A stretch of 50,228 bases of DNA from a virus. The position numbers and the translations under genes were made by a program. This document shows positions 564 through 50,156 of this stretch, one piece after another. The DNA is taken from IMG/VR virus record IMGVR_UViG_3300050821_004815, positions 1 to 50,228 of that record, one strand, 5' to 3'. Positions within the stretch are counted from its first letter, which is position 1, and every line of letters begins with the position of its first letter. The notes beneath the pieces were generated by a model. That model was not told the origin of the DNA and did no database searches. It was given only the letters and a program-made list of their open reading frames with translations.

Positions 564-657
564 TTCAAGGCAGGGCGAGGCCAAGCAGGGCTATGCGCGG
601 TCGGGCCATGCGCGACGAAGCAGGGCGGGGCTCAGCGAAGCGGGGCAACGCAAGGAT
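564..657 (+). repeat. Pentanucleotide array A1
   Basis: About 17 units of period 5 with GC at fixed phase (RGCNN) fill the gap between the stop at 563 and the TTG at 658. The array ends CGCAA GGATT, with GGATT in phase. In the second module copy the same two genes overlap by four bases (TTGA at 47141-47144) with no array, so this 94-bp block is an insertion or expansion exactly at the junction. Its AGGA end may serve as ribosome-binding site for the next gene. Confidence 0.9.
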
Positions 658-900
658 TTGACACCAGAACAATTACAAAAACGGAACGAAAAAATTAAAG
701 CGGCATGGGATTGCCCTTTGCGGCGATCATTGATGGCGAGGCTTAAAAAGGATCAGGTTTATGCCCGTTATGCCTGTCGGGGCCCGGATGGCCGATATCG
801 AAGATCTGACCCGCATGGTGGTCTCGGTTCAGGCGGAAGCGGCCAGCCACGGCAAACTGACGCTGTGGACGATCTACGACAAGCCGAAGGACCACCCTGA
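658..900 (+). CDS. Small basic protein overlapping the next gene, copy 1
   Basis: 80 aa. The N-terminal 50 residues (IKAAWDCPLRRSLMARLKK, then GPDGRYRRSDP) are conserved in the copy at 47141-47383 although the DNA there is only loosely similar. That argues the reading frame is real. The C-terminal third overlaps the next gene in another frame and is Gly/Pro/Gln rich. The start is TTG, with AAGGA from the array end six bases before. The first 120 bases are clearly AT-richer than the module around them. Function unknown; the basic N-terminus suggests nucleic-acid contact. Confidence 0.55.
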   Translation: MTPEQLQKRNEKIKAAWDCPLRRSLMARLKKDQVYARYACRGPDGRYRRSDPHGGLGSGGSGQPRQTDAVDDLRQAEGPP

Positions 901-1060
901 CGAGATCGTCGCCCGCCGACATGAGGTTCCCGGCGGCCCGACCGAAAACTTGATGGGCGGCGATCTCGGGCTTCTGCGTGAGGTGTTCCGCGGCGCCGGC
1001 CTGGTGTGCGTCGGCCGGCGGGAGGGCGACGACGTCAAGATAGTCGAGACATGGCTTTAA
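761..1060 (+). CDS. Conserved hypothetical protein, copy 1
   Basis: 99 aa and nearly identical to 47244-47543. Core segments are ADIEDLTRMVVSVQAEA, GKLTLWTIYDKPKDHPDE and GGDLGLLREVFRGAGLVCVG, which read as a small alpha/beta domain. The ATG at 761 has AAGGAT about 8 bases upstream; a later in-frame ATG (MADIEDL, 788) is possible. It overlaps the preceding gene by 140 bases in a different frame in both copies. No motif identifies a function. Confidence 0.75.
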   Translation: MPVMPVGARMADIEDLTRMVVSVQAEAASHGKLTLWTIYDKPKDHPDEIVARRHEVPGGPTENLMGGDLGLLREVFRGAGLVCVGRREGDDVKIVETWL

Positions 1061-1073
1061 CGGAGGATCAAAG

Positions 1074-1340
1074 ATGAACGCGATTGTCGAACTGGTTCAG
1101 CCGATCAAAAAGATTCGCAAGCCGCTCGAAGTCAAAAACGCCGAGCTAAGAGCCGAAATCCGCGAGCTTAAGCGCGACCTGAAGGCGGCGCGTCGGCACG
1201 CGACGGACATGCTCGCCTCGATGAAGCTGATGAACCATCGGATGCGATGGCTGATGGAGCATGCGAACTTCGAAACACGCTGCACATGCACCCCGACGCG
1301 CGCCGACTATCTCAGGGCGATTGCGCGTGACCCCGCGTGA
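1074..1340 (+). CDS. Coiled-coil protein with CxC tail, copy 1
   Basis: 88 aa. Residues 20-55 are rich in E/K/R/L heptads (KNAELRAEIRELKRDLKAAR), predicting a coiled coil. The C-terminus carries TRCTCTPTRAD followed by a basic tail. GGAGG lies upstream of the ATG. The copy at 47954-48196 keeps both ends, but the middle (MKLMNHRMRWLMEHANF here) is different. Its 3' end overlaps the GTG of the next gene. Role unknown; probably a small dimeric protein. Confidence 0.75.
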   Translation: MNAIVELVQPIKKIRKPLEVKNAELRAEIRELKRDLKAARRHATDMLASMKLMNHRMRWLMEHANFETRCTCTPTRADYLRAIARDPA

Positions 1341-1845
1341 AGCCGGCGAGATCGAGCTCGAAGAGCCCGACTGGTCAGCCCGGTTTGCGGAGCACTGCCT
1401 CCGCTGGCCGCGCTTGCCGCGGTACTTGCAGGAGGACTCGGCGTTCGAAGCCGTCATGCGCGAGTGGAGGATTTTCCATTTCGTCTGGAAAGAGAGCGAG
1501 GGGAAGGCCAAACGTCAGCCAGCGTCGGCGCCGGAAGCTATCATCGGACTCGCTAAGATCGGGATTTTCCCTGCTCGCTTTCTGCACAAAGATGTTCCTC
1601 GCGATCCAAGCGGCGGCTTTCAAAGTGACGATCATTGTTGGTTGAGCCTGAATCAAGAGCAATGGCGCATTACTGGCGTCGAGGACAAAATACTGTGTCT
1701 AGAAAAGGGGTTCGAAGACAAGCCGGAAACGCGACAAATTAACCTCGCTACGGCGAAATGGACGAAATACTGTGAAGCGGCGAGTGAGGCTTTGCGCGCT
1801 CGATCAGAATTTGAGGTTTACAACTCTACTAAAAATCAGCTATAG
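1327..1845 (+). CDS. Conserved hypothetical protein, copy 1
   Basis: 172 aa from GTG 1327, overlapping the previous stop as in a coupled operon. It matches 48509-48985 along its length (VTPREAGEIELEEPDW, FEAVMREWR, FPARFLHKDVPR, EDKILCLEKGFEDKPET). In copy 2 a CxxCxxCC gene lies just upstream, but not here. The last ~15 residues extend past the paralogue and the sequence there becomes AT-rich, next to array A2. No catalytic motif is recognised. Confidence 0.7.
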   Translation: MTPREAGEIELEEPDWSARFAEHCLRWPRLPRYLQEDSAFEAVMREWRIFHFVWKESEGKAKRQPASAPEAIIGLAKIGIFPARFLHKDVPRDPSGGFQSDDHCWLSLNQEQWRITGVEDKILCLEKGFEDKPETRQINLATAKWTKYCEAASEALRARSEFEVYNSTKNQL

Positions 1846-1857
1846 AGCTATTCTCTG

Positions 1858-2072
1858 CACGGCCAAGCGTAGCAAGGCTGGGCAAGGCGTGGCTGGGCCG
1901 GGCGGCGCGAGGCTAGGCGTGGCGTGGCGAAGCTAGGCGTGGCGTGGTCTGGCAATGCCCAGCCGGGCCGGGCGGCGCGAGGCAGCGCTCAGCATGGCAT
2001 GGCGCGGCGGGGCCAAGCAAGGCTTGGCGTCGCGAGGCGTGGTCGGGCGGCGCAGAGCGCAGCGAGGCAAGG
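1858..2072 (+). repeat. Pentanucleotide array A2
   Basis: About 43 units of the 5-bp RGCNN repeat with few phase slips, on the top strand. It contains a longer duplicated block (GGGCCGGGCGGCGCGAGGC recurs about 70 bp apart), which points to slippage or unequal exchange. It ends GGCAA GGATT and then TAATGAGTCAATTTA. The same junction, GGATTTAAT followed by GAGTCAATT, recurs after array A6 at 13559-13581. No gene is believable inside. Confidence 0.9.
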
Positions 2073-2077
2073 ATTTA

Positions 2078-2116
2078 ATGAGTCAATTTAACTCTGCTCG
2101 GCGAAGCAAAGCTTAG
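2078..2116 (+). pseudogene. Vestigial 12-codon ORF (MSQFNSARRSKA)
   Basis: ATG follows AAGGATTTA from array A2, so it has a ribosome-binding site, but it stops after 12 codons where array A3 begins. Its start (MSQFN) and 5' flank resemble the start of the helicase gene at 13571 (MSQLD, same GGATTTAAT...GAGTCAATT). It could be the remnant of a gene whose body was replaced by repeat. It could also simply be copied array flank. Confidence 0.35.
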
Positions 2117-2160
2117 CATGGCGTGGCACGGCCGAACACGGCGTTGCTAGGCAAGGCATG
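2098..2160 (+). repeat. Pentanucleotide array A3
   Basis: About 12 units of the same 5-bp repeat, ending GGCAA GGCAT GGATT directly before the ATG of the ribbon-helix-helix gene (2166). It is separated from A2 by only ~25 bp of AT-rich sequence. Confidence 0.85.
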
Positions 2161-2165
2161 GATTT

Positions 2166-2333
2166 ATGACAACCAAAACTTCACGAATCACCATTAATTT
2201 TAGCGACGCGGCGACGCAGTGGCTCAACCAAGAAGCTACGCGCCGCAATTTGAGCATCAGCGAATTGATCCGCCGCATCGTGGACGAACTGCGCGGTGAT
2301 TTTGTGCTCAAGGACAGCAAGAAAGCGTCTTGA
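2166..2333 (+). CDS. Ribbon-helix-helix (CopG/Arc-like) DNA-binding protein
   Basis: 55 aa: a beta strand (TSRITINFS), helix 1 (AATQWLNQEATRR), then NLSISELIRRIVDELR, the classic RHH layout of strand, helix, turn, helix. Such proteins dimerise and bind operator DNA through the strand. The ATG lies directly after the array end (ATGGATTTATG), so ribosome binding is weak or array-derived. It is AT-rich against its surroundings, suggesting acquisition. It likely regulates nearby early genes or itself; no target is visible. Confidence 0.75.
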   Translation: MTTKTSRITINFSDAATQWLNQEATRRNLSISELIRRIVDELRGDFVLKDSKKAS

Positions 2334-2363
2334 CGTCACTATAGATCGGATTTATGTAGATCA

Positions 2364-2436
2364 AGCACGGCGTGGCCGGGCGTAGCTCGGCACGGTTTGG
2401 CTAGGCGGTGCTGGGCGTGGCTCAGCGAGGCATGGG
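2364..2436 (+). repeat. Pentanucleotide array A4
   Basis: About 14 units (GGCGT GGCCG GGCGT AGCTC GGCAC and so on) between the RHH gene and the gene at 2457. It ends GGCAT GGGTC rather than GGATT. The downstream gene has its own site, GAAGGAAAG, so this array does not supply the ribosome-binding site. Confidence 0.85.
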
Positions 2437-2456
2437 TCTACAGAAGGAAAGATAAA

Positions 2457-3053
2457 GTGGAGATCAAAATAGCTGTTACTGGAATTACGCCACTAATCAT
2501 GAATAAATTTTCTGATGAAGCCGCATTAATCGCTTCTGGCGGCGTCCGAGGTAGTTCAGCTGCGGCTGGACGCAAAACGCCGCTCGAAATTTGTGAAAGT
2601 AAATTGTATGTAGGCCTCGACGGTAAAATAATGGTTCCACAGCCTAATTTATTACGCAGTATTGTAGACGGCGGTCGATTTCATAAGGCAGGAAAAAAAC
2701 AAATCACGACTAAAGAAGAGTCAATGATGTTTTCCTGCCTTGATATCGAAGGCATTAGTATTCCAGTCATCCATCAACAAGGCTGGAAGGTCGACACCCG
2801 TCCTGTGGTCAACCCTTCGACAAAAGGGCGTATCCTTTGTCATCGCCCGATGTTTGATGATTGGAGATTGGAATTCATCGTTCACCTCGACATCACTCTT
2901 CTCGGTCCAGGCATCTTCAGACAAATTGTCGATGACGCTGGCAATCGTATCGGGCTCGGTGATTTTCGACCGGCGCGAAAAGGTCCATACGGTCGTTATC
3001 GCGTCGACCATTGGGAGATCGTTGAGCAAACGCTTGATATAGCGGCGGAATAA
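2457..3053 (+). CDS. Phage 'TPLIMN' family protein (possible nucleic-acid-binding RAMP-like fold)
   Basis: 198 aa from GTG 2457, chosen for GAAGGAAAG 7 bases upstream; a longer frame would run into array A4. The N-terminus KIAVTGITPLIMNKF and the C-terminal GLGDFRPARKGPYGRY are marks of a widespread phage protein family that usually sits beside replication or recombination genes. From memory its fold has been likened to Cas7/RAMP ferredoxin-like proteins, but I cannot verify that here. The gene is AT-richer than the genome core and is flanked by arrays A4 and A5, so it looks acquired. Confidence 0.6.
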   Translation: MEIKIAVTGITPLIMNKFSDEAALIASGGVRGSSAAAGRKTPLEICESKLYVGLDGKIMVPQPNLLRSIVDGGRFHKAGKKQITTKEESMMFSCLDIEGISIPVIHQQGWKVDTRPVVNPSTKGRILCHRPMFDDWRLEFIVHLDITLLGPGIFRQIVDDAGNRIGLGDFRPARKGPYGRYRVDHWEIVEQTLDIAAE

Positions 3054-3060
3054 TTCAACT

Positions 3061-3368
3061 TAGCTGGGCAAAGCCTGGCGAAGCACGGCGACGCGAGGCC
3101 CGGCGGCGCGTGGCGGGGCAAGGTACGGCCCGGCATGGCGGCGCGAAGCCTCGGCGTGGCTCTGCCTGGCTCGGCAACGCATCGCGCGGCCGGGCAAGGC
3201 TTGGCGTGGCATAGCATGAGATGGCGAAGCACGGCGTGGCAACGCGCGGCATGGCGCAGCAAGGCGAGGGCGGGGCAGGGCGCGGCAGAGCGGAACTTGG
3301 CGATGCTGTGCCTGGCTTTGCTAGGCGTGGCCAGGCGTGGCCAGGCACGGCTGGGCAAGGCAAGGATT
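3061..3368 (+). repeat. Pentanucleotide array A5 (longest)
   Basis: About 60 units over ~305 bp with the GC dinucleotide every 5 bases and only a few phase slips. It includes GGCGTGGCCA repeated in tandem near 3325-3345. It ends GGCTG GGCAA GGCAA GGATT in phase. ORFs through it translate to low-complexity Ala/Pro/Arg or Gly/Ala/Arg 5-residue repeats and are not genes. A hairpin follows at 3378-3410. Confidence 0.92.
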
Positions 3369-3377
3369 TATATTAAA

Positions 3378-3424
3378 GGGCCCCCTGCAACGCCAAGCAG
3401 CAGGAGGCCCAATGGTCTGTTTTA
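3378..3424 (+). terminator. Hairpin after array A5, possible terminator
   Basis: Arms 3378-3388 and 3400-3410 pair at 10 of 11 positions (GGGCCCCCTGC with GCAGGAGGCCC) around an 11-base loop. A weak T-rich stretch (TGTTTTA) follows. It would end transcription from the 2166-3053 genes before the helicase gene. The remaining ~100 bases to 3528 contain a TTGACA at 3488 without a good -10. Confidence 0.5.
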
Positions 3425-3527
3425 GCCCAGGTGCGTAGGCCAACATTACATGTAGTGGAGTTATCCAACGTTGTCCACATGAGCGGTTTGACAGGACGCT
3501 GAATCGGGCAGAAATCTCGACCCACAG

Positions 3528-6289: not shown

Positions 6290-6613
6290 ATGGCGACCAT
6301 CAAGCGCACCGCTCACACCACCGTTCAAGCCGCACCCCGTACGCTGCCTCCATTGGAGCAGTCGCCCAGCCGCCTCGGAGATCGCGCCCCCGGGCAGCTC
6401 CCCGGCGTCGAGGACAACCAGTGGCCCGACGTTCCGGTCGATCCCGAAAGCGAAGCTGTCGAAAGCCAGGTCGTGACGGTCGGCCAGGAGCAATTGAAAC
6501 GCTCACGCGAGATGCAAGAGATAGGGATCGCCAACTGGGTCGCCGCGCGTGACGAGCGCGATCCTGCTGATCGGCCGCAACAGGTCGCTGGCGTCACACC
6601 CCTGGAACGCTGA
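6290..6613 (+). CDS. Hypothetical protein, Pro-rich N-terminus
   Basis: 107 aa with AGGAG 6 bases before the ATG. The N-terminal half is low complexity and Pro/Gln/Ala rich. Residues 65-107 are more ordered (VGQEQLKRSREMQEIGIANWVAAR). Its TGATG junction with the next gene indicates coupling. No known family recognised. Confidence 0.65.
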   Translation: MATIKRTAHTTVQAAPRTLPPLEQSPSRLGDRAPGQLPGVEDNQWPDVPVDPESEAVESQVVTVGQEQLKRSREMQEIGIANWVAARDERDPADRPQQVAGVTPLER

Positions 6614-7725
6614 TGGCTAATCCCTGGGACGCGCCGCCGGGTTTTACCGTTGACCCGACTACCGGACAGATCGTCCCGGTCCAACAGCCGTCGCAAGCCT
6701 TCCCTGGCGGCCCGCCGCCCGCTGCTCCGCAACCACAGGCCGCCGCTCCGCAGCCGACTCCAGCCCCGACACCAGGGGGTCCCGCGCCGGTTCCAGGCGT
6801 AACGCTGAACGGCGTTGGCCTCGACGCCAGCCCGAATGCCTTCACCGCGGCTTTTGGCGGCGCCCCACCGACTTCGAGCAACATGTTCCGCGGCGGCGGC
6901 TATGGCGGCGGCAAAAGTTCGATAACCGCCAATAAGCCGGTTAGCCCCGCGATTATGAAGCAAGTCAACAATCCGTTTGACTTCACCAAAGTACCAGGCT
7001 TGGGCTACGCCCCCGGCGGGGCGAACAGCAACGTCAATAGTCCGATTGCTCCTCCCTCGCCGCAAACGACAGCTCAAGCTCCACCTGGGGCGCCGTTGCC
7101 CCCACCTCGGCCGCCAGGGCTAGGCCAAGGCCCGCAAGCCGCCGCGCCGCCGGCAGCTCCCCAAGGTCAGCCTCCCTATGGCAATCCGTGGGATCCGCAG
7201 GGCGTCGGTTACGCCAGGTCGTGGGATCCGCAGGGCGTCGCCGCAGCCGCAGCTGCGCGGATGGGCGGGGGAGCCCCGCAGGGCGCGCTTGCCAATCCCG
7301 CGCTTGGTCAACAACCAAATTCGCCGTTCACCATGGTCTTACGACCTAATGCAGACGCCGCCGGGGGCGGTCGAGGTGGCGGCGGAACGCCTCTCGGCAC
7401 CGCGCTCGATCTTTCCGGCTATCGGCCGCCTCCTCCTGCCCCGCCGTCTTATAATCTCGGCTACAGCGGCGGGGCCCGCGGCGGCGGTGGCGGCGCTGCC
7501 GCTCCTCCGCCCCATTATCGAGCGCAAGCGCCAAATGATCCTGGCGGTCAATTTTGGAGCTTCTCTGGACCCGGAGTCGGGCTTCCGGCGGCCAAGGGAC
7601 CCGGGTTCTGGGCTGTCAAAGGACCAGGAGTCGGATTCCCGGCGGATAAGGGGCCTGGTTTCTGGGCTATCCATGGACCCGGAGTCGGGTTTCCATCGCC
7701 CGGCCCGGTCTTCGGGGGAAGGTAA
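6613..7725 (+). CDS. Pro/Gly/Ala-rich repeat protein
   Basis: 370 aa, mostly disordered PPAAPQPQAAAP-type sequence. Two NPWDPQGVGYA-like units occur near residue 190. A C-terminal set of about four repeats alternates GPGVGFPA and KGPGFWA (residues ~315-370). Such repeats resemble structural or surface proteins rather than enzymes. It is coupled to the upstream gene by TGATG and abuts the Ig-like gene downstream. Virion decoration is conceivable, though it lies outside the late operon. Confidence 0.6.
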   Translation: MANPWDAPPGFTVDPTTGQIVPVQQPSQAFPGGPPPAAPQPQAAAPQPTPAPTPGGPAPVPGVTLNGVGLDASPNAFTAAFGGAPPTSSNMFRGGGYGGGKSSITANKPVSPAIMKQVNNPFDFTKVPGLGYAPGGANSNVNSPIAPPSPQTTAQAPPGAPLPPPRPPGLGQGPQAAAPPAAPQGQPPYGNPWDPQGVGYARSWDPQGVAAAAAARMGGGAPQGALANPALGQQPNSPFTMVLRPNADAAGGGRGGGGTPLGTALDLSGYRPPPPAPPSYNLGYSGGARGGGGGAAAPPPHYRAQAPNDPGGQFWSFSGPGVGLPAAKGPGFWAVKGPGVGFPADKGPGFWAIHGPGVGFPSPGPVFGGR

Positions 7726-13149: not shown

Positions 13150-13479
13150 ATGGTCAAGCGCGACGACACGACCTTTGACCTGTTCGAAGGCGAAGCTCGC
13201 CGTGACAAGGGAATGGGTCAAGTCAAGAAAAACAATGCTGAATTGCTGGTGAAAATATTGGTCTTGATTCGCGAGTTGCCCACAAGCTGGGTTGGCCAGA
13301 CAGAAGACATTCGCACCATGAGCGAACCTCGCTACGGCAAGCCGACGCACCATAACTTCTACGGCGCGGTGGCAAGAGAAGCGGTCAGATTGGAGATCCT
13401 CGCCTACACCGGACGTGTTGTGAAAATGAAGCGCCCTAAAGCCCACGCCCACAAAACGCGAGAATTGAAAAGAACATGA
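13150..13479 (+). CDS. Small phage protein, possible winged helix
   Basis: 109 aa from ATG 13150 (TTG 13147 is also possible). The N-terminus DLFEGEARRDKGMGQVKKN resembles the 'LF-x-x-E-x-x-R-D' opening of a phage replication-associated family. The middle HHNFYGAVAREAVRLEILAY could be a recognition helix, with a basic tail (KRPKAHAHKTR). It directly precedes array A6 and the helicase gene. Function unproven. Confidence 0.5.
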   Translation: MVKRDDTTFDLFEGEARRDKGMGQVKKNNAELLVKILVLIRELPTSWVGQTEDIRTMSEPRYGKPTHHNFYGAVAREAVRLEILAYTGRVVKMKRPKAHAHKTRELKRT

Positions 13480-13480
13480 G

Positions 13481-13560
13481 CTTGGCGAGGCCCGGCGTGG
13501 CCAAGCATGGCGCGGCGCGGTCTAGCGAGGCTTGGCGCTGCAATGCGCTGCAATGCGAGG
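13481..13560 (+). repeat. Pentanucleotide array A6
   Basis: Sixteen units in perfect 5-base phase, ending TGCAA TGCGA GGATT in phase. The last part has a 10-bp tandem (CTGCAATGCG twice). It is followed by TAATTACGTGAGTCAATTA, sharing the A2 3' junction. It separates two genes that are otherwise closely packed. Confidence 0.92.
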
Positions 13561-13570: not shown

Positions 13571-14974
13571 GTGAGTCAATTAGACCCAGTTCAACTTAGC
13601 GCACTCGACTTCTCTCGCGATAAGCGCGGCGTCGGCTGGTTCATGGAGCAGGGGCTCGGCAAGACCCTGTGCGCGCTGGCTGAGTTCTCCTGGTACGAGA
13701 AGCTGGGCGAAGCCGACCGGATGGTCGTGGTGTGCCCGAACACCTTCAAAAAAGGGTGGTCGGACGAGATCGAAAAGCACGGCTTCTCGTTCGCCGAGCA
13801 CATCTTCCAATCAAGCAAAAAAGAGAAGGCCGGGATCTTCGTCAACGGCGTTCATAACCGTCCACCCGTTTTCATTCTCAATTACGAAGCGCTACGAATG
13901 CCGGCGGTGCTCAAGGCGATGACCACGTGGGCCTCGCGCGGCAAGACCTATTTCGCCATTGACGAGTCGATCCAGATCAAGAGCCATAGGAGTCAACAAA
14001 CCAAAGCGGCCCAGCGCCTCGCCGCGGTGTGCAAATGGGTGCGCTTGCTGAGCGGGCGCCCGCAAACCCAAGGTCCGCACGATTTGTGGGGGCAATTGCG
14101 CGCCATCGGGCTGTTCCCCGACACCAGCTTCCTCGCCTTCAGGAATACCTTCTGTGAAATGGGCGGTTACATGATGAAGGAGGTGGTCGGTGTGCGCCAA
14201 CCCGAAATGCTCGCTAGGATCATGGAACCGGTGGTCTTCCAGGCTAAAAAGAAAGACTGGCTACCGGATCTGCCGCGCAAGGACGCGACCATTCGCGATT
14301 ATGCGATGTCGACCGCGCAACTCGCTCAATACAACCAGATGGAGCAGCAGTTCCTGCTCTATCTAGAACACAACGTCGTCACGGTGGACGTCGCTATAGC
14401 TAAATACGAGAAGCTCGCCCAGATCCAGACGGGCTTCATATACGACGAGGCGGGTGATGTTCATGAGCTCGTAAAGCCTCTCGAAAACCCCCGGCTCAAG
14501 CTCTTGCATCAGCTTCTGGACGAGGAGGTCGAGGGCAAGGTCTGCGTCGTCTACCGTCATCGTCCCATCCTTAACATGCTGGTCAAAGCTTTGGCCGAAT
14601 ACGACCCGGCCTGGATCATGGGGCGGATGAAGCCCGAGGACGTCGAGGAGCAGAAGCGGCGATTTAACGACGACCCAAGCTGCCGGATCATCCTGTTGCA
14701 GGCCGAAGCCTCGAAATACGGGCATACTTTGTTGGCTGGCCCAGCGGAAGAAGACAGGTGCCGCACCATGATCTTCTTCGAGAATTCTTATAGCGCCGAC
14801 ACGCGAGACCAGATCGAGGATCGTATCCACCGCCGCGGCCAGACCGGCGAATACGTCTCGTATATCGACCTCTCGGGCTCGGACCTCGACCGCCGGATCG
14901 TCAAAGCCCTGCAACGAAAGGATGCGCTATATCGTTCTGTCTTTAAAAACCTTAGAGTCGCCGAACCAGCTTGA
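13571..14974 (+). CDS. SNF2-family helicase/ATPase
   Basis: 467 aa from GTG 13571, with AGGA at the array end upstream; the longer frame starting in the array is rejected. Motif I is MEQGLGKT (residues ~25-32), motif II AIDESIQIK (D-E-S in place of DEAH), motif III LLSGRPQTQ. Motif VI is QIEDRIHRRGQTG near the C-terminus. This is a compact phage SWI2/SNF2 protein that translocates on dsDNA, probably in replication or recombination with the VRR-NUC-like nuclease. The first ~12 codons are AT-rich next to the array. Confidence 0.88.
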   Translation: MSQLDPVQLSALDFSRDKRGVGWFMEQGLGKTLCALAEFSWYEKLGEADRMVVVCPNTFKKGWSDEIEKHGFSFAEHIFQSSKKEKAGIFVNGVHNRPPVFILNYEALRMPAVLKAMTTWASRGKTYFAIDESIQIKSHRSQQTKAAQRLAAVCKWVRLLSGRPQTQGPHDLWGQLRAIGLFPDTSFLAFRNTFCEMGGYMMKEVVGVRQPEMLARIMEPVVFQAKKKDWLPDLPRKDATIRDYAMSTAQLAQYNQMEQQFLLYLEHNVVTVDVAIAKYEKLAQIQTGFIYDEAGDVHELVKPLENPRLKLLHQLLDEEVEGKVCVVYRHRPILNMLVKALAEYDPAWIMGRMKPEDVEEQKRRFNDDPSCRIILLQAEASKYGHTLLAGPAEEDRCRTMIFFENSYSADTRDQIEDRIHRRGQTGEYVSYIDLSGSDLDRRIVKALQRKDALYRSVFKNLRVAEPA

Positions 14975-16055: not shown

Positions 16056-17498
16056 ATTCTTGATCGCATTGCCGACGTTGTAACCGCCGGCCGTCTCCGG
16101 AATCTGAGGACCAGTCTGCGCGCCCGTGGGTTGTTGACCGGTCAGTTGAGGGTAAGCCTGCTGAATGTTCGCCATCCCTCGGCGAGCATTGTAGGACTTA
16201 ATCAGCTTCTTGCCGCCCATGTAGCCCGCCAGTTCACCGGCCATCGCCCCGGGAATGCCAAAAAGGTGTTCCCCGGCAAAGCTTAACCCTGTCCCGAGCA
16301 GATGGGGGATCATCCAACTAACACCGTGATCGCTCGCGCCCGCGCCGGATAAGCCCGCCATCGCTTGATAATCCGGCGTTCCAGGTGTGTAATATTTTTC
16401 GGCTTCCGTGAACGGCCCTTGGCCGACGCTGCCGCCCGTCTCTTTCAACTGACGCTGCAATTCCCCTAGATACTGTGATGCCTGCCATTGCTTGTTGGCG
16501 TTCTGAGCGTCTTTCAGCATGCTGTAAGCTTGGCCGACCGGGTGATCGCTGGTCGGCTGCGCGGTCGCCAATACCCCGTCTTCTCCGGTCAACGCATCCC
16601 TGACCTTCGCCGCCAAAACCTGTTCCGCATTGTTGGTAGGAGAAGCCGCATCCTGAATGCTGCGGGCATATTCATCGACAGCGCCGGCCGACACCGGGCC
16701 GGTTCGCTGCATTTGATTAACGTGGTCCTGCATTTTATTCATGAAACCCGTAGAGACGTCTCCCTTTTGAACATCCGTTAGATCGTTGATGGAGCTGACG
16801 TAAGCGTCGGAAAGATCCTTTGGCGCGAATGTCGGCGCAGTAGAGGCGTGCAAATCCGCATACTTCGCGATCTTGTTCGCTTCGGTCGCCGCATTCGCCG
16901 CGGCCGGATCGACAGAGCCCGGCTTACCCAAGACCTTGGTCAGCCCCTTGTTGACCAGGGGCGCCGCGGCCCCTGCCGCCCCGCCCAAGGCCGCCCCGCC
17001 CAGCGCAGCCCCAGCGGTGCCCGCAAGCGTCGGATCGTCGCTGCCGGCGACGTGGCTGACCCCGCCGACCGTCGCTCCCTCGGCCGCCGTGCCGGCGATC
17101 TTGGATAGAGTCGAACCTGCTCCGAGCGCCGCCGCGCCCGCCTCCGCGGCGTCAGTCACCGGATCGAGGAGATTGACCAGTCCGAGCCCATAGCCGGCCG
17201 CCTCAGTCGGATAACGGATGTACCAGGGCAGGCTCGCCGCCGCGGCTGAGCTCTGCGCCGCGGTCTCGGAAGGCTTCTTTCCCGTCGCCGCCGCGCGCAG
17301 GAGATCGCCGACGCCCCAATCGGCCGAGCTTTCGAAGGTTCGCGCCACCGCGCTCAGCGGCGACTTGGAATAATCGTTGTCCGAGCTCGCGGAAGGCCAG
17401 CCGAATTTCGCCTGCAGCGCCGAGGTCATGGTCGAAGTTGGCGTGCCGTCAGGGAACTGCGCCGTCCCGCCGTCAGGCGTGTTGACGGTGATGGTCAT
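16032..17498 (-). CDS. Putative ejected internal virion protein
   Basis: 488 aa. The N-terminus ITVNTPDGGTAQFPDGTPTS is like the opening of phage ejection proteins. Gly/Ala-rich amphipathic or membrane-active stretches follow (AGTAGAALGGAALGGAAGAA at ~165-185 and LLGTGLSFAGEHLFGIPGA at ~405). It is the last gene of the late operon, next to two other low-complexity proteins and a lytic transglycosylase, as with podoviral injectosome proteins. The start overlaps the upstream gene's stop by 4 bases. Confidence 0.6.
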   Translation of the reverse strand: MTITVNTPDGGTAQFPDGTPTSTMTSALQAKFGWPSASSDNDYSKSPLSAVARTFESSADWGVGDLLRAAATGKKPSETAAQSSAAAASLPWYIRYPTEAAGYGLGLVNLLDPVTDAAEAGAAALGAGSTLSKIAGTAAEGATVGGVSHVAGSDDPTLAGTAGAALGGAALGGAAGAAAPLVNKGLTKVLGKPGSVDPAAANAATEANKIAKYADLHASTAPTFAPKDLSDAYVSSINDLTDVQKGDVSTGFMNKMQDHVNQMQRTGPVSAGAVDEYARSIQDAASPTNNAEQVLAAKVRDALTGEDGVLATAQPTSDHPVGQAYSMLKDAQNANKQWQASQYLGELQRQLKETGGSVGQGPFTEAEKYYTPGTPDYQAMAGLSGAGASDHGVSWMIPHLLGTGLSFAGEHLFGIPGAMAGELAGYMGGKKLIKSYNARRGMANIQQAYPQLTGQQPTGAQTGPQIPETAGGYNVGNAIKNLMLGSAY

Positions 17499-18874
17499 TC
17501 AAGCTGACCCGTCTTCGGATTGTAGGTGTAAGTTTTACCGCCTCCAGGGGCGTTCGCGTTCGCGGTCGCCGACTTCGGCGGATTGCTCGCCCACTGGCCA
17601 CCCTTGCCGGCATAGAGATCGCCGCCCGGCAAATAAGCCGAGTTCACCAACGGCTTTGGGTTGTTGGGGTCGCTCGTGTCCCACTTCATGCTATCGGGAA
17701 TTTCATCTATCCGGCCGGCCGCGCCGAGGGTGTTGACGTAGCTCTTGTTCAGTTGATTCTGAAACTGGCCGAACTGACTCATGTAGCCTTCCGGCGACTG
17801 AGTGAAGTTGGTCAGCGGGCTCAAGCCCTCGCGTAAGTTCTTCACCTCGGTCCCGGTGCGCCTCGACCCGGTCGATTGGAACGCCTCGCCGTAGACCTGG
17901 TTGTTGAGGGTTTTCATCTTCATCAGCGCATCTTGCTCGGGCTGGGTCAGGCCAGCCGAAGCAAGCAGCGACATCATGACACCCGGAGCAGTGTGCTCGT
18001 CCGACGACATCAGCTTTATGGCCGCGGCCTTCTTGATCGAGCTGGACAGGATATTCTGCATCACCGGCGTCGTGCCATCGGTGTCGACCGCGTTTTTGAT
18101 CTGGTCCGCGGTGGTCCGCATCTGGTCGATCTGAGTCAGCATGTCGGGCGCTTTTTGCTGTGCTTCGAGCAGATCTTTCTGCTTCTGCTCTGCGCCCTGC
18201 GTCCCGACTTGGATATTCGCCTCACCCTGCTTCTGCTTAAGCGCGATCTGCGCATCGATCTGCTTATTCATCAGCCCCTGCAGCTGGTCGGTCGGCAGGG
18301 CGTTAAGGATATTCGGATCCATCCCGTTCGGACCGCCAGTGAGGGAAGCGATCATCGCCGGCCGCGCGGCGTTGAGCCGCTGCATGTTCTGCAGCGCGAT
18401 CAGATTGGTCAGTTGCGCCCCAGGATCGGCGCCCTGGCGCTGCGAACCCATGATCGCATTCGCCATCTGAGGGGTCGAGAAAGCCGCCGCCATCATGTTG
18501 AGACCGTGGTCGATCTCGTTGGCCGAGCGGTTGCGCTGCTCCATCTGCAGATAAAGCTGGGCGAGGTCGGGCGGCGACTGAGTGGCGGCCGTAGGAGGCA
18601 ATCCCTGCTGTCCGGGCGGGGGCGCCGGCGGCGAAGGCCCGCCAGCGGGCAACGGCGGACCTCCTACAGGCCGCATAACCCCGCCACCCATCGGAGGGCC
18701 GCCTTGAGCGGGAGGAGGCATGGCGCCTGGGGGCAGCTTCCCGCCTGGCGGTGTGTTCTGCAATTGCGGCGGCGCATTCGGGTTGGGATTGGGCGCCGGT
18801 TGTGGGTTCATCGCCCCGGCAAGTTGGCTGTAGGGGTTGCCGTATAAAAGATTCAAGATTTCCGCGCCGATCAT
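17495..18874 (-). CDS. Putative internal virion protein, Pro-rich N-terminus
   Basis: 459 aa with AGGAGGAG before the ATG on the reverse strand. Residues 20-110 are Pro/Gly rich. The rest is helical with Gln-rich coils (LMNKQIDAQIALKQKQGEAN, QKQKDLLEAQQKAPDMLTQI). It sits in the ejection-protein cluster. No enzymatic motif. Array A7 lies just upstream of its start. Confidence 0.6.
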   Translation of the reverse strand: MIGAEILNLLYGNPYSQLAGAMNPQPAPNPNPNAPPQLQNTPPGGKLPPGAMPPPAQGGPPMGGGVMRPVGGPPLPAGGPSPPAPPPGQQGLPPTAATQSPPDLAQLYLQMEQRNRSANEIDHGLNMMAAAFSTPQMANAIMGSQRQGADPGAQLTNLIALQNMQRLNAARPAMIASLTGGPNGMDPNILNALPTDQLQGLMNKQIDAQIALKQKQGEANIQVGTQGAEQKQKDLLEAQQKAPDMLTQIDQMRTTADQIKNAVDTDGTTPVMQNILSSSIKKAAAIKLMSSDEHTAPGVMMSLLASAGLTQPEQDALMKMKTLNNQVYGEAFQSTGSRRTGTEVKNLREGLSPLTNFTQSPEGYMSQFGQFQNQLNKSYVNTLGAAGRIDEIPDSMKWDTSDPNNPKPLVNSAYLPGGDLYAGKGGQWASNPPKSATANANAPGGGKTYTYNPKTGQLE

Positions 18875-18890
18875 GTGCTATACTCCTCCT

Positions 18891-19007
18891 CGCGCGGCAC
18901 GGCTGTGCTTGGCGTCGCGGAGCTTTGCCCGGCTAGGCATGGCAGGGCTTTGCAGAGCAATCCTCGGCTGGGCCCGGCATCGCAAGACATAGCGCGGCAA
19001 GGCAAGG
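18891..19007 (+). repeat. Pentanucleotide array A7
   Basis: About 23 units, somewhat more degenerate, with the G-rich strand on top although both flanking genes read on the minus strand. It ends GGCAA GGCAA GGATG, abutting a hairpin at 19010-19030. Here the GGAT end faces the 3' end of a gene, so it cannot be a ribosome-binding site. Confidence 0.85.
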
Positions 19008-19691: not shown

Positions 19692-20579
19692 TTATCCGTA
19701 AAGGCCTGTGGAATTCAGCGTAGTGCCCGGGGTCGGCGCCGGGTTGGCCATCGGGATGATCTGGCCGCCCATCATCGTCTGGGTCGAGCTCGGGCCGGGC
19801 GCCCCTTTCAGGCCGCCCTGGCCGCGGAGCGCGGCCGCCAGCTGCGCGCCCTGCATGGCGAGCTGCTGCTGGCGCGCGTTGCCGCCCGCGGCCGCGGCCT
19901 GCTGGGTTTGCAAATCCAATGGCGCGGGTTCGCTACCCCCGCCGCCTCCACCGCCGGCCACCGACTCCAGATTGTCCATGGTCGACTTGGTGCCGGTCCC
20001 GCCGGTCGGCATGCTGAGCGCGGCTATCGCTGTGCCGACATTGGCGGGTTGAGCCGGTGCAGCGGCCGGCGTTGCGGCGACCGCCGTCCCGCCAGCAGGA
20101 CCGCCCATCTTCGCCGTGGCGTTGGCGACGTACTTGGCGACGCTCTCGTTGACATCGCCGACGTTGCGCTTCCACGGCGTCGGCGAGCCTGGTGGGGAGA
20201 CGTTGCCAGGGCCGGAAAAATAGGCGACCGCGACGCGTGCTGGGTCGTTCGGCCAGCGGCTCGCATAATCAGCGATGATCCGGTTGTGGACCGCCAGATT
20301 GTCAGCCGGGTTGTCGATGCTCTCGCCTGGGCGCGCGTATTGTTTGAACGTCGCCGGCATGATCTGCCCGGGCCCGCGCGCTCCTTGCGGACTGACCACG
20401 TTTCGGCCGCCGCTCTCATTGGAGATGATCCCTTTGGAAATCTGCGCCGGGGTGATGGTGACGCCAGGCGGGATCTGGGGCCCATAGTTTCCAGGCGCCG
20501 AAGGCAGCGGCGAGGGGGCATAGACCGGCGGCGGCTGAGCTCCTCCAAGCGGCGACGGCGCGTAGGGGTTGTCAGCCAC
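19692..20579 (-). CDS. Virion-associated lytic transglycosylase
   Basis: 295 aa from GTG 20579. A Pro-rich N-terminus (1-40) is followed by an SLT domain: ISKGIISNESGGRN with the catalytic Glu at 55, then GARGPGQIMPATFKQYA and RVAVAYFSGPGN. After residue ~170 it is Ala/Gly/Gln rich. It cleaves peptidoglycan during DNA entry, as T7 gp16-type proteins do. It lies in the ejection cluster and overlaps the upstream gene by 8 bases. Confidence 0.8.
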   Translation of the reverse strand: MADNPYAPSPLGGAQPPPVYAPSPLPSAPGNYGPQIPPGVTITPAQISKGIISNESGGRNVVSPQGARGPGQIMPATFKQYARPGESIDNPADNLAVHNRIIADYASRWPNDPARVAVAYFSGPGNVSPPGSPTPWKRNVGDVNESVAKYVANATAKMGGPAGGTAVAATPAAAPAQPANVGTAIAALSMPTGGTGTKSTMDNLESVAGGGGGGGSEPAPLDLQTQQAAAAGGNARQQQLAMQGAQLAAALRGQGGLKGAPGPSSTQTMMGGQIIPMANPAPTPGTTLNSTGLYG

Positions 20580-21951
20580 CGAGCGCCCCTAAAATCGGAG
20601 CGCCGGGAGCGCGCAGTTTGCTTTGTAAAATGCCCTTCGAAGGCGGGGTGGCGTCGGCCGACAGGGCTCCTCCGGGCTGGGGGCCTTGTTTGAGGATTCC
20701 GATTGCCTTCGCCACCCCTTGCGAGGATGGGGGAGTAGCCCCCGCGCCCAGCGCATTCAGCATGTCCATATGCACTGCCATGTGCCCCTTCGAGGTCACC
20801 TGGCGCACGGCGTGCGGCGCGATCTTCTTCACGTCCTCGGCCATCGGGCCGACGATCTTCGGGTAGTGCTTCGGGTCGCCCTTGTAGCGGTAGGCGTACA
20901 TGTCGATGCCGGTCGGGTGCTTGCCGATCTTGACGATGTCGGTCTTGAGGCGGCGATCCGAGAGGCCGAGCATCGATGTGAGACCGGCCATCGCGCTGGT
21001 GCCGCCGGCGCCCGAGGAGAACAGCCCGCCGAGCGTCTGCATGCCGCCGAGCGCCGCCGCCATCGGGTTCGACTGGGTCTGGGTGGTCTGCGAGGCCGAG
21101 GTGCCCGAGGTCGCGGTGTCGTACGGCGTCATGCCTAAAGACGATTCCATGATGCCGAGCTGTTGCTGCGGATACTGGAAGGCCTGTTGGAACTTGGCCA
21201 TCTGGGCGTTGACGTCGTTCTGCGCCTGTTGCTGCTCGAAGCCGCCAGCCGAGGTCAACATCCCGTAATTGGCGATGTTGTTTTGCATCTGCTGCGTGCC
21301 GAGCGTGCCGAGACCGGAAGCGGCCTGGTTGACCAGCCCCTCCTGACTAAGTCCCGCCGCTTGGTTAAGCTGTTGGGCCTGTAAATTGCGGCTAATGTCG
21401 CCGGTCGCTGCGGCTTGCGCCTGGCCGAAGTTGGCTTGGTTGAGCTGGCCTGCCATCTGGGCCATGCCTAACGCGCCTTGAGCCTGTGTGACCCCTTGTT
21501 GAATCGCTTGGCGTGAGCCGCCGAACGCGCCCGCCGATGCCGCGGCGTTCTGTTGCTGGTTCTGTGACAACCCCAGGTTTTGTTGCATGATCGGCAAAGT
21601 TGCATTGATCACGCTGGACGTGAATGGGTTCATGTACGGGCTAAGATTAGTATTAGCAATCTGTGCCGGATTAACTTGCTGCGGCGTCTGGCTCAAGTTG
21701 TTAAGGTACCCAGCCTGAGAAGCGTTCTGCGCGTCCTGGCCGACGTTCCCCGAATTCGCCGCTAAATTCCAGGCTTGTTGGCTCTGTGGAGCAACATCCG
21801 CCACCATCTGACCTTGATATTGCTGGAGGGGCTGCGAGGCGACTTGCTGTGCCAAACCATAATTCTGCTGGCCAGCGTTCTGCACCCATTGCGGAATTTC
21901 GTTGGTGCTCTCGGAACTACCTTGTTGAGTTGTTGTACTGCTCCCTCCCAT
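20572..21951 (-). CDS. Gln/Ala-rich virion protein with S74 intramolecular chaperone domain
   Basis: 459 aa. Residues 1-320 are Gln/Asn/Ala/Ser-rich helical sequence with repeated LNQAxxxSQ-like phrases. At about 330, LSDRRLKTDIVKIG begins a peptidase-S74-like domain (DMYAYRYKGDP, VGPMAEDVKKIAP). S74 domains usually end tail fibres and self-cleave after trimer folding. Here ~65 residues follow it, and the gene sits among ejection proteins, so it may assemble a trimeric neck or internal structure. Confidence 0.65.
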   Translation of the reverse strand: MGGSSTTTQQGSSESTNEIPQWVQNAGQQNYGLAQQVASQPLQQYQGQMVADVAPQSQQAWNLAANSGNVGQDAQNASQAGYLNNLSQTPQQVNPAQIANTNLSPYMNPFTSSVINATLPIMQQNLGLSQNQQQNAAASAGAFGGSRQAIQQGVTQAQGALGMAQMAGQLNQANFGQAQAAATGDISRNLQAQQLNQAAGLSQEGLVNQAASGLGTLGTQQMQNNIANYGMLTSAGGFEQQQAQNDVNAQMAKFQQAFQYPQQQLGIMESSLGMTPYDTATSGTSASQTTQTQSNPMAAALGGMQTLGGLFSSGAGGTSAMAGLTSMLGLSDRRLKTDIVKIGKHPTGIDMYAYRYKGDPKHYPKIVGPMAEDVKKIAPHAVRQVTSKGHMAVHMDMLNALGAGATPPSSQGVAKAIGILKQGPQPGGALSADATPPSKGILQSKLRAPGAPILGALGG

Positions 21952-21974
21952 GTGTTAAACTCCTCTTACAGCGC

Positions 21975-22054
21975 GAGGCTCAGCACGGCACGGCACGGCA
22001 CGGCCAAGCCAGGCGGCGCTCGGCTCGGCGAAGCTCGGCGATGCAAGGCATGGC
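21975..22054 (+). repeat. Pentanucleotide array A8
   Basis: About 16 units, including GGCAC four times in a row, top-strand G-rich between two minus-strand genes. It ends GGCAT GGCAA GGG and merges into a hairpin at 22055-22079. Confidence 0.88.
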
Positions 22055-22079
22055 AAGGGAACCATCCTAGAGTTCCTTT
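22055..22079 (-). terminator. Hairpin at the 3' end of the 22067-22426 gene
   Basis: AAGGGAAC and GTTCCTTT pair over 8 bp (one G-U) with a 9-base loop. The minus-strand TAG stop lies in the loop and the outer arm touches array A8. Confidence 0.4.
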
Positions 22080-27219: not shown

Positions 27220-28766
27220 CAGTTCCCGCTTACGGTCTTATGCGTTCCTGTCCCGGCGTCACTGACGCAACCAAGCGTGTTCATGCCGGAACAAATGTTG
27301 CCGGTAACAACATAATAGTCAGAAGCGCCAGAATTGATAAGCACGCCATAACCAGTGCGAGGGGCTGGCGGAGTCCCGGGCACCGCAACCAACCCAATAA
27401 AATCATTGGTAATCGAAAAGTTACTGACGCCGGGAGCAATTGCAATATTATTGGCTGAACCTGACAATCCAGTTCCGTTGTTATTAAGGTAAATCTGACT
27501 ATTAGTGATCGAAGTGGCCACACCGCCGCGCAACCAAAACCCATGCGTCGAATTATTATTGACGAGCATGTTAGAAAACATTGCGCCGCCAAAACCAGGA
27601 TCGATGCGAATGCCGGCTTGACTTAACGAAATCGATGCGTAGCCGTTAACCTCCTGAAGCATACCCCCTGCATGGAGATACATGGTGTTGTAGAAATTGC
27701 GCTCCAACTCAACGTCGTTGAATTCAGCAAAAAGAGGCTGGCTCACTCCAGTATTAAGAGAATCAATCATCGATAATCCCGTACATCCACTCAACAATTC
27801 AGCGTGATCAATACGAAGAGTGGCTGCCCAGCTATCCATCACAACCCACGCCGTCTTGCCGTCCTCTGGTGGGCAGGTCGCCTCGTATTTCCATTGCGCC
27901 GTGCCGTCGTTGATCGCCGTTGACCAGACCGCCGCTGGCGTCGTCACTCCTGGCGGATAACCACTCGGCCCCGTTCCAGTCGAAGCCGTCGTCCCCGCCT
28001 GCGTCACGCCGTAAAGACTGCCATTGATGTACGCCCACTGCCCGACCGTCACCGCAAGGTTCTGCGCCCAGGTGACCCTGTTCAGAGGAGAAACTGAAAC
28101 CGGCCACGGATTATTGGCGACGATGCGCGATATGCGCGCGCAGCACGTGTTGTTGCCGCCAACGTTGTCAGGCTGTCCGCCGAGATAAATCAAAACCGGG
28201 CTAAAGAGATTGCTGCCGTAAACCGTGTCAATTTTGAAATCAGCCGACTTACCGAGCGCAATTCCGCGCCACATGTATTGAATGACGATGTTCTCAATGC
28301 TGCAAAGGAAGCAGCCGTTCTGCACCCGGATGGTGTACCCATTAGTCGGGATGTAATGATTTGGGCCGAACTGGCAGCCGATAATCCGGCTGGACGATCC
28401 GGTCATCGTGAAGAAATCACCGCTATCCGTCGCTTGCAGTAATTGCCCTGCGAAACCGACGCCAGCCGGATAGTTGCCTTCGCATCTCAGAGTGACGACG
28501 CCGCTGATGGCGATAGGGCCACTGCTGGACGTATCGAGAAGGTATGAGCCAGGGGGAACAAGGACGGTGCCGCCGCCTTGCGCCACCGCGTAAGCGATTG
28601 CTGAACGAAACGCTGGCGCGCTATCCTTCGCGGCAGTAGGGTCAGCGCCATAAAAGCGGACATCGTTCGCCGTGATGACGCTCTGAAACGTCGGCGTCGG
28701 ATAGGACTGCGCCTGCGCCGCCACGCTCAACCCCAAAAGCGCGCAGATGAAAGCACTACGAAACAC
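27216..28766 (-). CDS. Pectate-lyase-like beta-helix protein with signal peptide (2)
   Basis: 516 aa from GTG 28766, with GGAGGGG upstream. Signal-like start (FICALLGLSVAAQAQS), then VRFYGADPTAAKDSAPAF and GGGTVLVPPGSYLLDTS, the Pectate_lyase_3 opening. The body has beta-helix Asn/Gly turns and several Cys residues. It parallels the adjacent beta-helix gene, and the pair probably arose by duplication followed by strong divergence. Likely tailspike or secreted depolymerase. Confidence 0.7.
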   Translation of the reverse strand: MFRSAFICALLGLSVAAQAQSYPTPTFQSVITANDVRFYGADPTAAKDSAPAFRSAIAYAVAQGGGTVLVPPGSYLLDTSSSGPIAISGVVTLRCEGNYPAGVGFAGQLLQATDSGDFFTMTGSSSRIIGCQFGPNHYIPTNGYTIRVQNGCFLCSIENIVIQYMWRGIALGKSADFKIDTVYGSNLFSPVLIYLGGQPDNVGGNNTCCARISRIVANNPWPVSVSPLNRVTWAQNLAVTVGQWAYINGSLYGVTQAGTTASTGTGPSGYPPGVTTPAAVWSTAINDGTAQWKYEATCPPEDGKTAWVVMDSWAATLRIDHAELLSGCTGLSMIDSLNTGVSQPLFAEFNDVELERNFYNTMYLHAGGMLQEVNGYASISLSQAGIRIDPGFGGAMFSNMLVNNNSTHGFWLRGGVATSITNSQIYLNNNGTGLSGSANNIAIAPGVSNFSITNDFIGLVAVPGTPPAPRTGYGVLINSGASDYYVVTGNICSGMNTLGCVSDAGTGTHKTVSGNW

Positions 28767-30258
28767 AGATCACCCCTCCGTTATTCCATAGGACCCCAGC
28801 TGTCGGCGGCAGAGTCGTGGGCAAATTGAGCCACCAATTCGGCCCCGGCGGACCTTGCGGACCCGGCGGACCTTGCGGCCCCGGCGGACCCGTGCCAACC
28901 GCCGTTGTGTCATAAATATCGGCGGCCAAGATTTCGCCCGCGCCAGCAGGCCACAAGAGATTAACTCGATTGTTGGGTACATCGACGGTGTAGCCGCCCG
29001 CGCCCGTCCCGTTGTCGGGAACCAGCCTTAAGCCACCCTTGGAGACGATGAGCCCCATGTTGGCGGCCAGAACAATACTGTTGCCGAACATGTCAGCGGC
29101 GGACAGCGAGAACGCCGTCTGACCCGCAGTAGCGATGTAATATAACGACAGGGTTTTTTGCTGGGTGCCGCCGCCGCCAATAATCGTCGTCCAAGAGAGG
29201 ATGCCAGAGCCATTGGTCGTGAGCACCTGACCGGCCGAGCCGCCGTAGATCGCCAAATGAGTCAGATCAGCGAGAGCGAGCAGTCCGTTGACCGCCAGGC
29301 CGCCCTGAATCGTGACTCCGGACCCGTTGAAAACCGTCGCGCCGTCCGCCCGCGCGATGCTCAGCCAGGTGCCGAGAGACACGCCGGTCGTAGAGTAAGC
29401 CTGGAGGCTGAAATTCGCCCCAACGTTGTTCAATCCCTCATTGGTCTGATCGCCCAGATTCATCACCCAGCGCGTGATCCCCGCCGCCTGGGCAAGGATG
29501 GCGCGCGGATTGTTCAGCGGCGCATTGAGCACCAGGCTATTCGGCCCCTGCACGGTCAGAACTTGATTGACCGTCAGCGAGCCCGTGATCGTGCCACCCG
29601 CAATCGGCAAGTAAGGGCCGCCAGTGACCGGCGTCACCCACGACAAATTGCCGTTGCCGTCCGTAGCCGGAACTTGCCCGAGAGAGCCGCCGCCGATGCT
29701 GAGTTGAGCAACCGTCGGAATGGAACAAACCGCATTCCCGGCGAACAAGAGCGCGCCGCCGGTGACCGCGCCGCCCGTCGCCAAATTAGTCTGCCCGGTG
29801 AACGTCCCACCGCTTGCCGGAACGACGAGGTTCCAGGCCCCTAACGCGCGCCCATAAGTCTGATTGTCGGGCGGCTCGGAGATGCCGACTGAATGCGTTT
29901 CAAGATATTCGAGAGTGACCGGCTCCATCGGCTCAACTGGATCGCGCGACAAAAGAACCGGATAGTCGAGCGAGATCGTGGTCGGCGAGATCTGCACCGC
30001 CGTGTCAACGACATTCCCACCGCCATCAAGCTGATTGATCTGGAAGTTCGGCGGGCTCTCGCCGTCGTTGAGCGAAACTTGCCAATAAAGCGAGCTGACC
30101 GTCGCTGGCACACCAGTGATGGTGATGCCGCTGACAATCGCTGGCCCGGCCGGGGCGTTGCAACCCTCGGTGTTATTCCAATCGTTCGACGGCGGCAGCG
30201 GATCGACCACCCATTGCGGGGGTGGTTTCGGCGGCCCTGGAACCCACGCATCGTTCAT
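28756..30258 (-). CDS. Tail fibre with collagen-like segment
   Basis: 500 aa. The N-terminal ~130 residues are beta-rich (VSSLYWQVSLNDGESPP) and likely attach to the tail. The middle has fibre-type phrases (GGTFTGQTNLATGGAVTG, GGTITGSLTVNQVLTVQG). Near the end, GPPGPQ is repeated three times (collagen triple-helix unit), followed by LWNNGGVICVS, a common fibre C-terminus. It forms a trimeric fibre. Array A9 lies just upstream of its start. Confidence 0.78.
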   Translation of the reverse strand: MNDAWVPGPPKPPPQWVVDPLPPSNDWNNTEGCNAPAGPAIVSGITITGVPATVSSLYWQVSLNDGESPPNFQINQLDGGGNVVDTAVQISPTTISLDYPVLLSRDPVEPMEPVTLEYLETHSVGISEPPDNQTYGRALGAWNLVVPASGGTFTGQTNLATGGAVTGGALLFAGNAVCSIPTVAQLSIGGGSLGQVPATDGNGNLSWVTPVTGGPYLPIAGGTITGSLTVNQVLTVQGPNSLVLNAPLNNPRAILAQAAGITRWVMNLGDQTNEGLNNVGANFSLQAYSTTGVSLGTWLSIARADGATVFNGSGVTIQGGLAVNGLLALADLTHLAIYGGSAGQVLTTNGSGILSWTTIIGGGGTQQKTLSLYYIATAGQTAFSLSAADMFGNSIVLAANMGLIVSKGGLRLVPDNGTGAGGYTVDVPNNRVNLLWPAGAGEILAADIYDTTAVGTGPPGPQGPPGPQGPPGPNWWLNLPTTLPPTAGVLWNNGGVICVS

Positions 30259-30278
30259 GGTATAAGCCCCCTACCATG

Positions 30279-30352
30279 GCAAGGCGAGGCCAGGCTGAGC
30301 ATGGCCCAGCGGGGCCCGGCCCGGCGGCGCCAGGCCCGGCAATGCGCGGCAA
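30279..30352 (+). repeat. Pentanucleotide array A9
   Basis: About 15 units (GGCAA GGCGA GGCCA GGCTG AGCAT and so on), G-rich on the top strand between minus-strand genes. It ends GCGCGGCAAAGAGAGGAG, running into a perfect hairpin at 30356-30383. Confidence 0.86.
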
Positions 30353-30355
30353 AGA

Positions 30356-30383
30356 GAGGAGCTTTGGTCAACCAAAGCTCCTC
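30356..30383 (-). terminator. Perfect 13-bp hairpin at the end of the tail adaptor gene
   Basis: GAGGAGCTTTGGT and ACCAAAGCTCCTC pair fully around a 2-base centre. The minus-strand TGA stop (30368-30370) lies at the tip. No T-run follows on the minus strand; instead array A9 begins. Confidence 0.5.
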
Positions 30384-46767: not shown

Positions 46768-46778
46768 GGGACACAAAC

Positions 46779-47543: not shown

Positions 47544-47546
47544 CTC

Positions 47547-48985: not shown

Positions 48986-49005
48986 TTTATAAGGCGAATT
49001 CGCTC

Positions 49006-49064: not shown

Positions 49065-49122
49065 CTTTCAAGATCCGTGACCAAATATCTGTCCCGGCAA
49101 GAGTCGAAAGGAATCAACGCAA

Positions 49123-50151: not shown

Positions 50152-50156
50152 ACGAT

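Follow-up and report, generated by a model that had tools for sequence, protein, structure and literature searches.

VIPR guide arrays scattered through a soil phage genome match relatives' versions of the adjacent genes

Introduction

The VIPR (Viral Interference Programmable Repeat) system, only months old in the literature and proposed to be the ancestor of CRISPR effectors, was described in a preprint of April 2026 (PMC13142463, doi 10.64898/2026.04.26.720920). According to the main text of that preprint, VIPR pairs an ancestral RAMP protein, Vipr, with vrRNAs built from GGY/NN repeats. In reading DNA, the NN pairs skip one base, usually the one at the codon wobble position. The features described there also include 9-16 repeats per vrRNA, a conserved 3' tail and an accessory gene, vap, and repression by VIPR is reported for other systems.

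The closest functional parallel to the arrangement reported here is marker exclusion in phage T4, exerted by free-standing homing endonucleases that lie beside their target genes (SegF, SegE and SegG; reviewed in PMC2988022). In both cases an element beside the target gene would disfavour the allele of a co-infecting relative, but the T4 enzymes are nucleases that cut DNA and spread by gene conversion, whereas specificity here would reside in an RNA guide. Likewise, the intron endonuclease gp210 of PhiPA3 interferes with co-infecting PhiKZ through a specific sequence of the rival (PMC11620839). In that case a protein nuclease encoded in an intron acts on one target, in contrast to the RNA guides with several targets proposed below.

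We have analysed the IMG/VR soil phage record IMGVR_UViG_3300050821_004815, a stretch of 50,228 bp that we call the window throughout. It shares with the VIPR of the preprint's main text (PMC13142463) a Vipr RAMP protein, GGY/NN arrays, the one-base skip at the wobble position, carriage by a phage and targets in rival phages. Unlike the locus described there, it has most of its guides in single arrays that lie scattered between genes. The target of a scattered guide is the homolog of the gene next to it, of which the phage itself has an altered copy. While the VIPR system itself is already known, this neighbour-targeting arrangement is absent from that main text, in which the words 'adjacent', 'self-target', 'dispersed' and 'neighbo(ur)' are not used; the comparison covers this main text, and priority is not certain.

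Results

The gene flanked by arrays C and D, one on each side (Table 1), encodes a Vipr protein. Its product matches PDB chain 36pp_D, 'SUSP1 Vipr protein' (phmmer, E 2.5e-5), its predicted structure has a pLDDT of 88.1 and a pTM of 0.82, and the best matches of this model in a Foldseek search of the PDB are chains of Csm/Cas7-type CRISPR complexes (E 6e-7). Searching viral contigs for nothing but the array pattern yielded at least 120 stretches, and a homolog of the gene is encoded at 66 of about 120 loci, counted among the matches listed together with a few earlier loci. We conclude that the gene is vipr, coding for a Cas7-like RAMP protein, and that the arrays are VIPR vrRNA arrays. The RHH gene adjoining vipr (Pfam RHH_1, E 0.0022, just short of the family cut-off) is a candidate for the DNA-binding vap (vipr-accessory) gene.

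The arrays are runs of (GGC)NN, that is, units with a period of five and two variable bases. They score 51-200 bits compared with at most 18 in shuffled sequence, and many units carry AGC, CGC or TGC in place of GGC. Single arrays have 14-25 units each, the majority terminating in a GGCAAGGATTT-like motif, and strong 3' hairpins are confined to arrays H (z -4.5) and J (12 bp, z -6.3). Within 30258-30390, array J separates two genes that in relatives share an overlap of stop and start, and the outer arm of its terminal hairpin, a perfect one, lies inside the next gene. All arrays of the window are in plus orientation, including H, I and J, which the earlier note on this DNA did not list and which lie among minus-strand genes. 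Among other array-bearing viral contigs, 49 of 50 have all their GGCNN array matches on one strand; only the contig of L130 has matches on both (47 forward, 4 reverse).

Other identities for the arrays were considered and rejected. Instead of the identical repeats with unique spacers of a CRISPR array, we find period-5 units with two variable bases, and slippage of a simple tandem repeat does not fit a constant GGC next to a freely variable NN. Ribosome-binding or promoter leaders are ruled out by the plus orientation that the arrays keep among minus-strand genes, and a hairpin-ended transposon by the restriction of strong 3' hairpins to H and J and by the fact that no transposase was seen beside the arrays. 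A free-standing homing endonuclease does not fit either: no nuclease gene was found at arrays F, H, I and J, and arrays I and J, which are the only insert at their sites, encode no protein.

Table 1. Arrays, neighbouring genes and related features of the window
Feature	Position	Strand	Description
Array A	566-655	+	about 17 NN units; score 58; putative guide against homologs of following gene (658-)
AT-rich, diverged gene start after array A	658-780	+	GC 0.455; own target site 748-795
Array B	1857-2068	+	about 44 units, of which the first 14 match gene 1261-1845 homologs; own site near 1453-1494
Array B'	2095-2161	+	14 units; putative antisense guide against RHH gene homologs
RHH gene, candidate vap	2166-2333	+	holds own B' target site 2178-2207
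Array C	2364-2431	+	15 units; weak match to vipr antisense strand, 2778-2807
vipr gene	2457-3053	+	Vipr, RAMP-fold effector; phrog_4652
Array D	3059-3365	+	about 61 units, several putative guides
Array F	13477-13560	+	17 units; putative guide against relatives' SNF2 gene start
SNF2-type helicase gene	13571-14974	+	phrog_62; own target site 13580-13614 altered (LDPVQLSALDFS)
Array H	18888-19007	+	25 units, minus-strand genes on both sides; putative antisense guide against start of gene 17495-18874
Array I	21969-22058	+	19 units; putative guide against start of gene 20572-21951 (minus strand, DNA ejection protein)
Array J	30275-30354	+	17 units; putative guide against start of gene 28756-30258 (minus strand, tail-spike-like)
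Second, diverged copy of window start (sister strain)	46582-50228		without array A; without VIPR block at homologous position

Positions 46582-48985 repeat positions 1-1845, with 95% identity up to about 560 and a patchy match beyond. Because three syntenic, circularly permuted relatives (G001, G002 and G003) carry this region once, the contig most likely wraps around a circular genome of about 46.6 kb and runs into a sister strain, 'copy 2'. Array A is missing from copy 2, where the DNA at the start of gene 658 also differs. An unrelated HNH endonuclease gene is inserted in copy 2 (47547-47957) between genes that are adjacent in copy 1, and a ParB-like gene (49123-50151) takes the place of the copy 1 VIPR block in copy 2, marking a variable site of the genome. 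Elsewhere, a 54-bp tandem repeat occupies 7567-7688 inside a proline/glycine-rich ORF (6613-7725).

No arrays are present in G001, G002 and G003, nor in the stretches examined of 42 SNF2-bearing loci. Array I is a clean insertion between adjacent genes in comparison with three relatives, and so is array J in comparison with two; at site H the relatives have no array, yet G001 has other sequence there.

The earlier note had observed that AT-rich genes directly follow arrays, and composition bears this out. Measured against 52 long ORFs (mean GC 0.605, SD 0.041; mean GC3 0.696, SD 0.085), the stretch 658-780 lies at z -3.7, the RHH gene (2166-2330) at GC 0.515 (z -2.2) and vipr (2457-3050), the AT-richest of these ORFs, at GC 0.470 (z -3.3), while the first 20 codons of the SNF2 gene have a GC3 of 0.50 vs 0.754 in the remainder. 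These parts lie directly 3' of arrays A, B', C and F, respectively. The first 20 codons of the gene beside array I are AT-rich as well (GC3 0.45 vs 0.765), and those of the array J neighbour are not. The abrupt return to near identity with copy 2 that had been placed at about 780 is equally real, with 49 nt of perfect identity starting at 780. The protein encoded by 658-779 had been called conserved despite different DNA; the peptides are indeed similar, but they are not identical. The suggestion that foreign segments recombine in at arrays is partly supported. Foreign DNA does lie beside the arrays: relatives and copy 2 have neither block 1846-3520 (arrays B to D, the RHH gene and vipr) nor the AT-rich beginning of gene 658. 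But we found no evidence that arrays are recombination hot spots. Given the sharp edge at 780, recombination probably delivered some of the altered segments.

To read the guides, the NN pairs were decoded and searched for in the window, the three relatives and other loci. With a skip of one base, guides F, J and H outscore permuted guides, and their matches, all in relatives, fall where the gene next to the array begins. Within 600 bp of the arrays, the real guide was equalled in 0 of 200 permutations for F, H and I, 1 of 200 for J and C, and 6 of 200 for B'; skips of 0, 2 and 3 gave no comparable signal over the same 600 bp, and a skip-3 score of 24 was rejected as a target signal since each array matches itself. 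At the peptide level, a search of 1.26 million residues ranked the adjacent gene or its homolog first for each of A, F, H, I and J. For A the top match is the copy 2 version of the following gene (63 vs a null of 39-45), and for H the top match among relatives is the neighbour's homolog. Local peptide permutations agree (F, H, I and J, none of 1000; A and B', one of 1000), and the first 14 units of array B match the copy 2 homolog of gene 1261-1845 better than all 500 permutations (2/500 for the own gene). From these matches we conclude that a predicted guide against the relatives' homolog of the adjacent gene is encoded by each of arrays A, B (in its 5' part), B', F, H, I and J. Array C points to the Vipr motif KVDTR (77 of 1000 peptide permutations) and is weakly indicated as a guide against its adjacent gene. 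For array D, targets were not found in the 1.26 million residues, by permutation or with a 20-base pattern in viral contigs, where the one match, in L346 (about 0.08 expected), has a stop in the expected frame and is probably due to chance; a 20-base pattern of array B had no match in viral contigs. The own target site is close to the array, at 10 nt for B', 17 for J, 19 for F, 21 for H, 23 for I and 95 for A, and at 346 nt for C. The target of guide F is a helicase gene, that of guide I encodes a DNA-ejection protein and that of guide J a tail-spike-like protein.

The specificity of guides F and J was further measured in databases. Units 2-12 of guide F (22 gapped bases) have exact matches in 18 of 2.9 million viral contigs and zero matches in 257 Gb of bacterial genomes. 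Every one of the 18 lies at codons 5-14 of a homolog of the SNF2 gene beside array F, and together they have 13 different wobble strings. Units 2-10 of guide J (18 bases) match 15 viral contigs, in each case at codons 2-10 of the homolog of the J neighbour. By chance about 0.005 (F) and 1.3 (J) matches would be expected, assuming a mean contig of 15 kb. As the units were picked once their match to relatives was known, these counts speak to specificity and not to discovery.

The phage's own alleles fit some of these guides less well than the alleles of relatives do. The SNF2 target reads LDPVQLSALDFS in the window vs LDPVQIAALDFA in most relatives, the serine at its seventh position being found in the window alone (1 of 43 alleles), and guide F fits 18 of 22 bases of the own gene vs 22 of 22 in relatives. 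Near-identity to the closest SNF2 relative, L147, resumes directly after the target, with an edge like that at 780. Guide J fits 15 of 18 own bases (NDAWVPGPP) vs 18 of 18 in relatives (NDQWIPGPP). At the array I target, three serines for which the guide reads TCN are encoded by AGC or AGT in the own gene; the switch is synonymous but alters both of the bases that are read. Guide A fits 21 of 28 own bases vs 23 of 28 in copy 2, and guide B' reads TVRVT[IM][KN]FS vs TSRITINFS in the own gene. In relatives, the gene starts are better conserved than the remainder (+0.075 for F, +0.081 for J), whereas in the window they are less conserved (-0.061 and -0.130). Since the own alleles at H, I and A fit the guide about as well as many relatives' alleles, escape of the own allele from its guide appears clear for F and J only.

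Is the arrangement general? Among 144 arrays in other phages most have no match to the neighbour (mean z 0.37 at the peptide level). A base-level comparison in other VIPR phages gave a mean z of 0.19, and guide-neighbour matching is rejected as a universal rule of VIPR phages. However, six arrays in unrelated phages (L105, L136, L062, L097, L086 and L130) match their neighbour, each with 0 of 1000 permutations; set against the non-matching majority, they indicate that the arrangement recurs without being universal. In one phage with seven scattered arrays on one strand (L306, the contig of L031), none matches the neighbouring genes. No guide-neighbour match better than 4/200 was found at 11 loci with Vipr relatives in bacterial genomes. 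The closest Vipr in the bacterial genome collection, that of Mesorhizobium sp. Root552 (L347, 44% identity), has no more than a short degenerate array upstream, and its similarity may hint at a rhizobial host. An AT-rich phage carries degenerate GGY arrays on both sides of its vipr homolog (L016:8471-9375). In a fragment whose Vipr is 78% identical to that of the window (L124:585-1461), several long arrays follow that are spaced by a recurring linker, GAGGATATTTTATTGATT, which is probably the vrRNA tail of the subtype.

Discussion

We consider it probable that an array and its altered neighbour form a linked cassette of guide and resistant allele that would exclude rival phages. The phage would have acquired a VIPR system, comprising vrRNA arrays and the Vipr effector, in which the scattered single arrays at gene junctions spell the rival phages' version of the adjacent gene. 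Its own segment is altered by conservative amino acid changes, by switches of serine codon family or by replacement with an AT-rich segment, giving a poorer fit of the guide to the own copy. During co-infection, Vipr with its vrRNAs, if expressed, would bind and repress genes of the rival, among them those for the helicase, the DNA-ejection protein and the tail-spike-like protein, and mismatches would spare the own genes. Lying tens of bases apart, guide and altered allele could recombine into new genomes together. The sequences show the VIPR identity, the target matches beside the arrays, the own-allele mismatches (clear for F and J) and relatives free of arrays; expression, repression, immunity of the own allele and joint transfer are inferred from them. 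Because most arrays target the neighbour's homolog, the presence of a changed segment beside an array would be explained by selection for linkage to a guide-resistant allele, and the arrays would be functional cargo rather than a passive hot spot.

Autoregulation offers another explanation for the same adjacency. Scattered vrRNAs could bind the phage's own neighbouring genes by partial complementarity and tune their expression, which would suit own sites that adjoin the array, mostly at gene starts, and retain 65-85% of the read bases. We think this unlikely, as an autoregulator should preserve its own site. Instead, guides F and J fit relatives perfectly and the own gene worse, the own changes fall on residues conserved in most relatives, and the own gene starts are unusually diverged.

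Alternatively, the guides may have been made from the own or ancestral neighbouring gene, as in spacer acquisition, with the own gene drifting later, so that adjacency would reflect how guides arise and not selection for linkage. Guide F and the own allele share a TT (leucine) unit that is missing in nearly all relatives, and adjacency recurs in unrelated phages, both of which would be expected from local copying. However, we identified no acquisition machinery, a neighbour match is missing for most VIPR arrays of other phages, and copying alone leaves altered own targets with intact flanks unexplained, which makes this origin quite improbable. That arrays are recombination hot spots gathering foreign AT-rich segments, as the earlier note proposed from the AT-rich segments beside arrays and the edge at 780, and as the foreign VIPR block might also suggest, is very improbable, since a hot spot does not explain why array content predicts the neighbouring gene, the J neighbour is not AT-rich, and the guide-neighbour matches already contradict it as the whole explanation.

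A linked guide and resistant allele has an engineered counterpart. Cleave-and-rescue drives, built in animals, link a guide to a recoded allele that escapes it. The window would likewise link guide and escaping allele, but its version is apparently natural and phage-borne, with no nuclease identified. It is about as likely as not that a scattered vrRNA and the altered gene start beside it constitute a self-contained, recombining RNA-guided drive unit, one that would suppress the rival allele during mixed infection and be inherited together with the allele that survives, as a natural counterpart of cleave-and-rescue and an RNA-guided form of marker exclusion.

For VIPR itself, this genome bears on how self is told from non-self, suggesting that some guides are stored beside an own allele that no longer fits them. 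Target prediction would be eased by inspecting the gene next to an array, and the pair of own and rival alleles provides a built-in test of mismatch tolerance. The arrangement would also connect interference by RNA guides with the marker exclusion seen among co-infecting phages and with a drive-like mode of inheritance.
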